Shown: in pieces, positions 23,715 through 26,244 of the stretch
Position numbering within the stretch: position 1 is the first letter of the stretch
Layout of the letters: every line of letters starts with the position of its first letter
Assembly: GCA_017477845.1 (NCBI GenBank)
Contig: JAFUTR010000004.1
Span: 1 to 52,047 of the forward strand
Source of the DNA: Bacilli bacterium
GTDB taxonomy: Bacteria; Bacillota_I; Bacilli_A; RF39; UBA660
Direction of reading: 5' to 3'
Length of the DNA: 52,047 bases
Position numbers and translations under genes: made by a program
Notes under the pieces: generated by a model
Database searches by the model: none
Seen by the model: the letters and a program-made list of their open reading frames with translations, nothing else
What the model was told of the DNA's origin: nothing

Positions 23715-23745
23715 TTGTCACAAAAATGTAAATATATTATATACT
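23715..23745 (+). promoter_or_regulatory. Possible promoter of the long VanW gene
   Basis: TTGTCA (23715-23720) and TATACT (23740-23745) with a 19-base spacer, 23 bases before the ATG. The spacing is long, and TATATT just upstream is an alternative -10. Confidence 0.4.
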
Positions 23746-23768
23746 TTACTTATAGTGAGGTGACAATT

Positions 23769-24989
23769 ATGAACAAACAAAAAAGAATGGCTGCAGTGTT
23801 TATGGGGATTTCGTTTATTTTTTTCTCATTGTCACTTTACATTATTTATGGGATAAATATTAGAATTAATGCTAGTAAAGATAAAGTTGAGATTAATAGT
23901 TTTGTTGGAGAATATGAAATATCTAATACGGATTTTAATAAATTCAAAGAAAAAATGGATAGTATTGAAAAAGATTTAAGAAGTAAGATGATTACTCTTG
24001 TTATAAATAATGATGAGTATAAATATACTTTAGGAGATTTAGGAATTAGATTAAATCAAGATGAATTATTAAAAGAAATAAGTGAGTATCAGGATAGTTT
24101 AGATTATTGGACGCTTTATAATAACTATAGTAAAAATAATTTTGAAAAAATAATATATGACTATGATTTTGTTATTGATGAAGATGAACTTCGTGAAACA
24201 CTTGTTAATGCAAAAAAAAATGTAGATGTTAAAGCTGTAGCTGGAAAGCTTTCAATGGGAAATGATAGAGTATTAAGATATATAAATGAAAAAGTAGGTT
24301 TTAGCCTTAATGTTGATGAAAATATTCAATTAATTAAAGAAAACTTTAAAACTATGAACTATAATGAAAATTTAACTTTAGTAGGAGATCCAGTTTATAC
24401 AACAGATAAAATGAAAAATATGACTACTAAAATATCAAGTTTTACTACTACTTTTGATGATACTGTATCAAGAAAATTTAACTTAATTGCTGGTGCAAAA
24501 TATATCGATGGTGTTATTTTATTACCTGGAGAAGTATTCTCATTCTATAATCATGCTGGGCCTTTCAATAAAGAAGGATATACTTATTATCTTGGTGTAA
24601 TAGGAAATGGTGTTTGTCAAGTAGCGTCTACACTATATAATGCACAACTTCTTGCAGGACTTGAAACTGTCTTAAGGTATAATCATGGAGTTAAATCAGT
24701 TTATGTACCTGGTGGGTTTGATGCAACAGTTGCATCAACTAAAGGTGTTATAACTGATTATAAATTTAGAAATAATCTTAAATATCCTGTTTATATTTCT
24801 GCATTTGTTGATGGTGGAAAGTTAACGGTTGAGATGTGGTCAAGTGATAATGCTCTTGATGGTAAAACATATGAAACTGAATCTGTTAAGTTAGGGTATG
24901 GTAGTTATAGAGCATTAAGACATGTATATAAGGATGGTAAGAAAATAGAAACACAAGATTTAGGAATATCATATTATTTTAGTGAATAA
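23769..24989 (+). CDS. VanW-family wall protein with N-terminal peptidoglycan-binding-like domain (YoaR type)
   Basis: A 406-residue protein with an N-terminal membrane anchor (about 8-29), a helical peptidoglycan-binding-like domain (about 60-220) and a C-terminal VanW domain: LPGEVFSFYNHAGPFNKEGY, GVCQVASTLYNAQLLAGLE and DATVASTKGVITDYKFRNNL. This is the layout of Bacillus YoaR. The VanW biochemical role is unknown, but the domain occurs with cell-wall and vancomycin-resistance genes. GAGGTGA precedes ATG 23769; a GTG at 23715 overlaps the -35 box. A second, shorter VanW lies at 34538. Confidence 0.9.
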   Translation: MNKQKRMAAVFMGISFIFFSLSLYIIYGINIRINASKDKVEINSFVGEYEISNTDFNKFKEKMDSIEKDLRSKMITLVINNDEYKYTLGDLGIRLNQDELLKEISEYQDSLDYWTLYNNYSKNNFEKIIYDYDFVIDEDELRETLVNAKKNVDVKAVAGKLSMGNDRVLRYINEKVGFSLNVDENIQLIKENFKTMNYNENLTLVGDPVYTTDKMKNMTTKISSFTTTFDDTVSRKFNLIAGAKYIDGVILLPGEVFSFYNHAGPFNKEGYTYYLGVIGNGVCQVASTLYNAQLLAGLETVLRYNHGVKSVYVPGGFDATVASTKGVITDYKFRNNLKYPVYISAFVDGGKLTVEMWSSDNALDGKTYETESVKLGYGSYRALRHVYKDGKKIETQDLGISYYFSE

Positions 24990-25014
24990 AAAAAGAGTAT
25001 TTCTCTCTTTTTTA
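24988..25014. terminator. Bidirectional terminator shared by the VanW and alpha-CTD-like genes
   Basis: AAAAAAGAG (24989-24997) pairs with CTCTTTTTT (25005-25013) around TATTTCT, giving a T run on both strands. The stop codons of the two convergent genes touch its two arms. Confidence 0.8.
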
Positions 25015-25233
25015 ATATGTTTTTTTATTTAGGTCATATCCTTTTAACTGAAGTTTAATAATTATTTGATTTATTTCACTATCAGAAAGATTATAACTTT
25101 TCAAATCTTTTCTTTTTAAACTCCATACGTCTTTTATTGTTATTATATTATTTTCCTTTAGTTTTTTTGTAATTGATTCTTTTAAATTTAATTCTTCTAT
25201 TTGATTATTTAGAAATTTCATATTTTTTAACAC
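25012..25233 (-). CDS. Small protein resembling the RNA polymerase alpha C-terminal domain
   Basis: A 73-residue protein. LNLKESITKKLKENNIITIKDVWSLKRKDL followed in frame by a second helix pair resembles the helix-hairpin-helix fold of the alpha-subunit CTD, which normally reads LxLSxRxxNxLxxxxIxTxxxL and then LGxKSxxEI; here the second hairpin has lost the conserved glycine-lysine pattern (NLSDSEINQI). The start is uncertain: GTG 25233 is very close to GAGG, ATG 25221 is far from it. It overlaps the end of the CarD gene and is therefore coupled to it. A role modulating RNA polymerase with CarD is inferred from fold and context. Confidence 0.6.
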   Translation of the reverse strand: MLKNMKFLNNQIEELNLKESITKKLKENNIITIKDVWSLKRKDLKSYNLSDSEINQIIIKLQLKGYDLNKKTY

Positions 25234-25678
25234 ATTCCTCTACATATTTTTTAGTATCTTCAAAACTTTTGTTAAGAACAATTGAGAACTCTGTATATAA
25301 ATATTTTTCTGCTAAGATAAAGTAATCTTTATCTTTTTCACTTAGTTTTTTCTTTTCATTGATTCTTTTTTGATTTCTTAAATATGTTGTTTTTATTATT
25401 GATATTAGACTTTCGAAACTTCCATCTTTTAAAAGTTCTTTATACTGATTTTCAATTAATTTGTCATTTTCATTTATAATTTTAATATTTGGGATATTAT
25501 TAATTATTTTATTAATTTCTTTTATAGATATTAATGACCTTATTAGTTTACTGTTTTTTAATGCTTTTATTGTAAGTGTTTCATCATTAATTGGTTTTAG
25601 AACATAATAATCGTCATTTGTATCAATTACTTTGCATACATCTTTTTTATACACTATTATATCATTTTCTTTATACAT
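25205..25678 (-). CDS. CarD/CdnL-family transcription regulator
   Basis: A 157-residue protein with an N-terminal CarD/TRCF RNA-polymerase-interacting (Tudor-like) domain (NDIIVYKKDVCKVIDTNDD, YYVLKPINDETLTIKAL) and a helical C-terminal domain rich in lysine and glutamate (about 60-155). CarD/CdnL proteins bind the RNA polymerase beta subunit and stabilise open promoter complexes. The domain order and length fit. The gene has its own promoter, a hairpin with T run between promoter and ribosome site, and a CGGAGG ribosome site. It overlaps the alpha-CTD-like gene by 29 bases. Confidence 0.88.
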   Translation of the reverse strand: MYKENDIIVYKKDVCKVIDTNDDYYVLKPINDETLTIKALKNSKLIRSLISIKEINKIINNIPNIKIINENDKLIENQYKELLKDGSFESLISIIKTTYLRNQKRINEKKKLSEKDKDYFILAEKYLYTEFSIVLNKSFEDTKKYVEECVKKYEISK

Positions 25679-25692
25679 AATATCCTCCGAAT

Positions 25693-25735
25693 AAAAAATA
25701 GCTAATCAACTGGACTTATGCCAATTAATTAGCTA
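25693..25735 (-). terminator. Leader terminator (attenuator candidate) before the CarD gene
   Basis: On the minus strand, 25735-25721 (TAGCTAATTAATTGG) pairs with 25713-25699 (CCAGTTGATTAGCTA) over 15 bases, including two G-T pairs, around a 7-base loop, followed by six T (25698-25693). The ribosome site (25689-25684) and start codon follow 5 and 15 bases later, and the -10 box is just upstream, so the whole hairpin is in the 5' leader. Confidence 0.75.
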
Positions 25736-25749
25736 CACGTTGCAATTAA

Positions 25750-25758
25750 ATTATAACA
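25750..25758 (-). promoter_or_regulatory. Extended -10 promoter of the CarD gene
   Basis: On the minus strand this reads TGTTATAAT. Transcription would start near 25743, a few bases before the leader hairpin. Confidence 0.6.
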
Positions 25759-25839
25759 AATTTTAAAAAAATTCGTAAGTAAAAAAACAAAAAATAAATT
25801 ATGTGATATGCTATATATGTGATAGATTGGAGATTAGTT

Positions 25840-26244
25840 ATGAATTTTTATTTAATTAATGATAATTATAATGAAGTTGTTAAACTTATAAGAAATGCTT
25901 TTGAAATAGATAATAATTCTTTTTGTGAATTACTTTCTAATCAGCGCTTTTTAACTTTAAAAGTAAATGGTAATTTGATAGGAGCACTTTTAATTAGTTT
26001 AGAAAATGATCCTATTAAGGATGTTAAAGGCTTTTATATTGATTATGTTTGTATTGATGATAAATATAGAAATAAAGGTTATGGAAGAATGATGCTGGAA
26101 GAAGTTATTAGAATTGCAAAAGAAGAAAATGTTAATTATATGAGGTTAACTTCTAGTAGTAAGAGAGTTTTTGCAAGAAAGATGTATAATTCAATAGGTA
26201 TGAAATCTCTTGATACTGATCTTTTCTATATTGAAGTGAGGTAG
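25840..26244 (+). CDS. GNAT-family N-acetyltransferase
   Basis: A 134-residue GNAT protein: IDYVCIDDKYRNKGYGRMMLEEVIRIA contains the acetyl-CoA-binding R/Q-x-x-G-x-G/A loop (RNKGYG), followed by the usual helix, a strand (YMRLTSS), and the terminal MYNSIGMKSLDTDLFYIEV. It should transfer an acetyl group to an amine; the substrate is unknown. ATG 25840 follows GGAG (25829-25832); GTG 25819 lies upstream of it. A membrane protein gene begins 1 base after the stop. Confidence 0.88.
   Translation: MNFYLINDNYNEVVKLIRNAFEIDNNSFCELLSNQRFLTLKVNGNLIGALLISLENDPIKDVKGFYIDYVCIDDKYRNKGYGRMMLEEVIRIAKEENVNYMRLTSSSKRVFARKMYNSIGMKSLDTDLFYIEVR

Follow-up and report, generated by a model that had tools for sequence, protein, structure and literature searches.

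Which proteins does a pair of overlapping genes encode, and what decides whether RNA polymerase reaches them past a terminator in their leader? The question is raised by a short minus-strand locus (25012-25779) of a Bacilli bacterium (GTDB lineage Bacillota_I; Bacilli_A; RF39; UBA660; assembly GCA_017477845.1, contig JAFUTR010000004.1, positions 1 to 52,047). The window is this whole stretch of 52,047 nucleotides. A preliminary description, made from the letters without database searches, had read the locus as a pair of RNA-polymerase-associated factors under transcript-level autocontrol. Transcription would start near 25743, as placed from the promoter sequence, and the features of the locus are the following.

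25775 to 25779, minus strand: CTTAC box in the -35 region, 19 nt ahead of the -10 hexamer
25750 to 25755, minus strand: extended -10 with hexamer TATAAT and a TG one base ahead of it, read from the sequence
25706 to 25742, minus strand: conserved RNA core of 37 nt, from the match to covariance model R1 and covariation
25742 to 25739 with 25710 to 25707, minus strand: P1 stem of the core (CAAC/GUUG)
Within the core, minus strand: internal loop GUGUA / AUAAGUCCA, and P2 formed by GC/GC plus one pair
25698 to 25736, minus strand: terminator hairpin of type I, its 5' arm formed by the core's 5' half
25690 to 25697, minus strand: terminator U-run TTTTTATT
25684 to 25688, minus strand: ribosome binding site GGAGG, read from the sequence
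25205 to 25678, minus strand: CarD/CdnL-family open reading frame of 157 aa, from profile and predicted model
25012 to 25221, minus strand: stand-alone RNA polymerase alpha-CTD-like open reading frame of 69 aa (ATG at 25221, stop ending at 25012)

The CarD-family protein and its alpha-CTD-like partner

The first gene encodes a protein with an N-terminal CarD/TRCF RNA polymerase-interaction domain and a helical CarD C-terminal domain, which places it in the CarD/CdnL family as the preliminary description had proposed. The single sequence remains below the Pfam cut-off (E 0.0016 and 0.017). A profile of 13 relatives matches CarD structures of the PDB over the whole protein length (2lwj, E 1.9e-11; M. 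tuberculosis CarD, 3.7e-9), and among the 13 aligned members RID is matched by ten and CarD_C by eight at E<=0.01. The predicted model combines a beta barrel with five helices at a pLDDT of 94. CarD/CdnL proteins bind the RNA polymerase beta subunit and stabilise the open complex. The window protein shares both domains with its mycobacterial, Thermus and Myxococcus counterparts, but differs from them in being often paired with an alpha-CTD-like protein and in lying behind a likely switch. A weak CarD-like match was also seen in a 4466-codon open frame of another genome (L025; G048:C6).

The second gene overlaps the 3' end of carD by 17 nt, in line with the overlap described earlier, and its product would have 73 rather than 69 residues if the GTG at 25233 served as start. 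Its profile matches the alpha-CTD structure 3ihq_B (E 1e-4). In fold comparison, the predicted model (pLDDT 79, built from eight sequences) is close to alpha-CTD (Z 9.7). The N-terminal domains of RAD51-family proteins score nearly as high (up to 9.4), so that the sequence profile decides the assignment. This genome has a second carD, and the paralogue encoded behind it scores above the alpha-CTD threshold of Pfam. Profile and model point to a helix-hairpin-helix alpha-CTD fold, and the structure prediction that had been set beforehand as a refuting test came out in its support. RpoA, encoded elsewhere in the genome, retains its own CTD and is separate from the alpha-CTD-like gene.

The partner resembles the polymerase alpha-CTD in fold and sequence profile, but differs in standing alone, in its length of 69 residues and in its DNA-contact positions. 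The alpha-CTD of E. coli contacts DNA through R265, N268, G296, K298 and S299. An alignment to a Bacillus-type alpha-CTD, in which these residues were sought in the window protein, shows them replaced by S17, K20, S47, S49 and E50, respectively. Given these replacements, UP-element binding is unlikely, and action through a protein contact is the better guess. Among 29 distinct homologues of the alpha-CTD-like protein found, 24 lie directly behind carD, which indicates that the pair is real. Two RNA-polymerase-associated families lie in one transcription unit, as had been suggested.

Divergently from the pair runs a gene (25819-26244, plus strand) assigned by eye as a GNAT-like acetyltransferase. 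Between the alpha-CTD-like gene and a convergent gene (23715-24989), a short A/T-rich inverted repeat at about 24990-25015 has T-runs on both strands and is likely a two-way terminator.

The leader terminator and the conserved core

Between the promoter and the ribosome binding site, the preliminary description had seen a hairpin of 15 pairs followed by a T-run. The hairpin is there with a stem of 16 pairs (four of them G-C; 25736-25698) and runs into TTTTTATT. It is the sole terminator-like site in the 1-kb region scanned (mean in shuffles 0.0), with a fold energy of -19.8 kcal/mol (z = -3.45).

Comparison of carD leaders from the same family and class revealed a core of 31-38 nt in about 40 of 98, with the consensus NAAY-GWGUAGC-N(4-12)-GYRUAARUCC-A-RUUN and a 5' end close to the putative transcription start. 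The window core matches covariance model R1 at 49.2 bits, with the window copy among the training sequences and E-values of the model being rough. NAAY pairs with RUUN to form P1. Its first pair is C-G, U-A or A-U, its third A-U or G-C, and its fourth C-G or U-A. Across P1 and P2, 98.1% of cells are paired and 18 double changes occur versus 4.3 in shuffles; none of 500 shuffles equalled the pairing or the double-change figure. Two P1 pairs have the highest mutual information of all column pairs (147 distinct copies). The inner P1 pair is formed in 76 of 77 exact-pattern matches for which the pattern left the P1 5' strand free (C-G 36, U-A 34, U-G 6, other 1; Fisher 9e-16). Part of the apparent core conservation stems from the way copies were collected, with a model and a pattern of the core itself, and relatives are not independent.

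The P1 fold and the terminator are mutually exclusive, and the conservation of P1 can therefore not be a by-product of terminator conservation. In the window leader the terminator reaches -19.7 kcal/mol versus -2.5 for the bare core, and by these predicted energies the leader should be OFF unless assisted. With a covarying structure that excludes an intrinsic terminator ahead of several gene families, the element has the features of a terminator-controlled cis-regulatory RNA.

An intrinsic terminator takes its 5' arm from one core half in 161 of 172 distinct copies. The arm is the 5' half in 69 copies (type I) and the 3' half in 92 (type II), with 11 unclassified. In type I leaders, to which that of the window belongs, a downstream GCUAC or variant of it is the pairing partner of GUAGC; in type II leaders the other half GCGUAAGUCC pairs with GGACUUACGC. 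An extra upstream strand complementary to the terminator 3' arm is found in 34 of 84 type II leaders versus 1 control. The -10 hexamer lies 3-14 nt ahead of P1 in 62 of 69 type I copies (the start site itself being placed by inference), which leaves no room for a further 5' domain. A single conserved core destroyed by either terminator resembles a sensing domain with exchangeable expression platforms. The leader terminator of the preliminary description is thus conserved and likely regulatory, and an alternative leader fold, which it had envisaged, is provided by the P1-closed core.

The CTTAC box probably constitutes a second cis-signal. About 19 nt ahead of the -10 hexamer, it is found in 31 of 40 carD leaders that have the element, in 19 of 56 that lack it and in 48 of 87 MATE leaders with a -10 hexamer, set against a background of 7 among 1485 -10-like hexamers in the window. 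The spacing is exactly 19 nt in 42 of 50 cases. All three element loci of the source genome have CTTACGA at 19 nt from TATAAT; a loose CTTAC pattern gives 14 matches in this genome, the three loci included, with a control count of 17. Of 16 element loci from genomes where CarD was undetected, 11 also retain the box. Its recurrence at a fixed spacing, also without the element or CarD, probably reflects an additional factor acting at the DNA level or an unusual -35. An RNA-DNA pairing of a core GUAAG with the -35 CTTAC was considered and rejected, since AUAAG and CTTACG of the window could pair only in part and carD leaders that lack the core still have CTTAC.

Distribution and controlled genes

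With a model built from carD leaders, the element was detected in 79 of the family's 386 genomes, and other families of the class have it too. Cultured carriers include Ruminococcus flavefaciens, Anaerorhabdus furcosa and Floccifex porci. The exact-core pattern matched at more than 115 places in Bacilli, Clostridia (Ruminococcus, Lachnospiraceae, Blautia and Desulfosporosinus) and one Spirochaetales assembly. A phage or plasmid origin was rejected, as the pattern was unmatched in viral contigs and the locus in plasmids. Behind 179 distinct copies, which like the 172 above still include a few of the chance-like regex matches (L041 and L109, both carD leaders, L144(+), L232(+), L275 and L302), lie MATE exporters in 91 cases, carD in 57 and an alpha-CTD-like gene alone in five. 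The rest comprise 13 copies before other genes and 13 without a readable gene.

The source genome has three copies, ahead of both carD/alpha-CTD-like pairs and of a MATE gene fused to a kinase-like Cytidylate_kin2 domain. In this MATE (L159, minus strand from 3032, G000:C21), the C-terminal domain (PF13189) is matched at E 4.8e-55. Four further MATE proteins under the element (L168, L171, L255 and L284) also have a C-terminal Cytidylate_kin2 domain, judged by resemblance.

Among 91 carD genes of the family, 41 have the element directly ahead and 10 lie 1.4-2.1 kb behind one, with a MATE gene between in those examined. The remaining 40 lack an element, both directly ahead and a short way upstream, so control by the element appears optional. 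CarD was undetected in 24 of 77 element-bearing family genomes; many of the genomes analysed are incomplete assemblies. Element and carD co-occur in 53 genomes versus 17.6 expected, but relatives are counted as independent here and we build nothing on this excess. At one locus several stops break carD, with the element ahead of it intact (L130; G055:C2:717-1187).

Tandem copies of the element occur ahead of MATE genes, and Ruminococcus flavefaciens YAD2003 has carD, a gene for a 79-aa small protein and MATE in a row, each with one copy. Proteins of about 79-82 aa with CICQTLHF near the start have their own copy at five clostridial loci (L205, L212, L217, L225 and L280). Their gene adjoins MATE or carD where seen (L212, L225), and a search of Pfam and NCBIfam gave nothing above cut-off. 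Membrane proteins of about 190 aa lie directly behind the element at L201, L286 and L293; that of L201 had no Pfam match. At L118 (from 1500), the gene behind the element encodes 69 residues resembling a helix-turn-helix protein (HTH_28, E 0.001), a possible regulator of the set.

Candidate mechanisms

We suggest that the leader is probably a transcription-attenuation ON-switch with a conserved sensing core, either riboswitch- or RAT-like, and the several unrelated gene families under the element support an attenuator. By default, the nascent leader is predicted to form the terminator, and RNA polymerase would halt near nucleotide 50, ahead of carD. In the ON state, a ligand might bind the internal loop of the short P1-closed hairpin and hold one core half, blocking the terminator and allowing carD and the alpha-CTD-like gene to be transcribed. 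As the same element precedes MATE exporters, one signal would turn on export together with RNA-polymerase-bound factors. The most likely signal is hence a small toxic compound or a stress resulting from it. With a core of about 32 nt, a four-pair stem and a cost of about 17 kcal/mol relative to the terminator, capture would have to be fast or strongly assisted.

A more specific version, which we put forward tentatively, is a new riboswitch class of unusual compactness, with this core of about 32 nt. It would sense a toxic, possibly RNA-polymerase-directed or nucleotide-like compound and induce MATE, sometimes as a cytidylate-kinase-like fusion, together with CarD and the alpha-CTD-like protein. 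Either terminator would then consume one aptamer half.

The core could instead be held by a trans-acting RNA-binding protein, as by LicT or BglG on the RAT hairpin, which we regard as unlikely. RAT hairpins (LicT/SacY/BglG) are also short, have conserved internal loops and exclude a terminator; a conserved asymmetric internal loop over the terminator arm is the RAT layout. A core of 32 nt is small for a small-molecule aptamer, and the common CTTAC box shows that a trans-acting factor could exist at the DNA level too. However, no single regulator gene accompanies the exporters, carD, alpha-CTD-like and small-protein genes, no BglG-type gene was seen among the controlled genes, and the sequence of RAT hairpins presumably differs from the core. 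A near-invariant core from Bacilli and Clostridia to one Spirochaetales assembly suits a small ligand equally well or better.

It is quite improbable that the element senses the state of the polymerase, with the hairpin contacting RNA polymerase or its folding tracking elongation speed, so that an inhibited or altered enzyme would pass the terminator. In that case CarD and its partner would protect or retune the polymerase, and MATE would expel the inhibitor. Two of the controlled gene families are polymerase-associated, and given the close -10 hexamer in most type I copies, the core would be the first RNA to leave the enzyme. The invariance of the core across two terminator designs, however, points to recognition of the core and not to timing alone.

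Autocontrol was the proposal of the preliminary description. In the form of either protein of the pair attaching to the leader of its own transcript, we find it highly improbable. The element does stand directly ahead of many family carD genes or of the alpha-CTD-like gene alone, but most copies precede exporters, and both the element and its CTTAC promoter persist in genomes where CarD is undetected. The alpha-CTD-like protein also lacks the DNA-binding residues of alpha-CTD. A sensorless leader, with a plain terminator or a hairpin that stabilises the 5' end, is hardly credible, as P1 covaries although its formation disrupts the terminator, and the internal loop hardly varies between phyla, even though the window hairpin by itself is a good terminator.

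As a putative attenuation ON-switch, the element can be compared with described classes. The window region has no match in Rfam 15 at E<=5, eight element loci gave only chance-level Rfam matches with none on the element, and its description was not found in open-access full texts. The guanidine-IV (mepA) riboswitch and its variant, the Gd4v motif (PMC7736828, PMC9788692), are likewise leader ON-switches at an intrinsic terminator, with MATE among their genes and a presence in Bacillota and gut bacteria. They span about 88-95 nt and consist of two hairpins joined by a pseudoknot, whereas the core here is one hairpin of 31-38 nt, beginning at or close to the putative transcription start. Identity with them was rejected because the -10 spacing of type I copies leaves no space for the 5' hairpin; the distinction is thus one of layout, not of consensus sequence. 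The guanidine-IV paper makes no mention of CarD. A SugE search for guanidine-IV leaders was positive in 5 of 120 genomes of the class, and Rfam labelled none of three leaders tried. The orphan Gd4v motif has a link to GNAT (PMC9788692); the GNAT-like gene beside the carD pair is possibly a coincidence. The HMP-PP (thiS) riboswitch, whose aptamer is embedded in a terminator (PMC6478431), also shares aptamer nucleotides with that terminator but controls thiamin genes, whereas the element has no Rfam match at all.

Ahead of carD and MATE genes in many gut bacteria, this RNA resembles a genetic switch of a kind not yet described. Covariation, terminator exclusion and the shared gene set turn this into an idea testable at the bench, and the element would be one of the smallest natural RNA switches available for study. 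CarD in these bacteria gains a functional neighbourhood and a control that is likely inducible. Identifying the ligand or factor would show which signal many gut Bacillota encounter that requires a drug exporter and, at the same time, a change affecting RNA polymerase itself.
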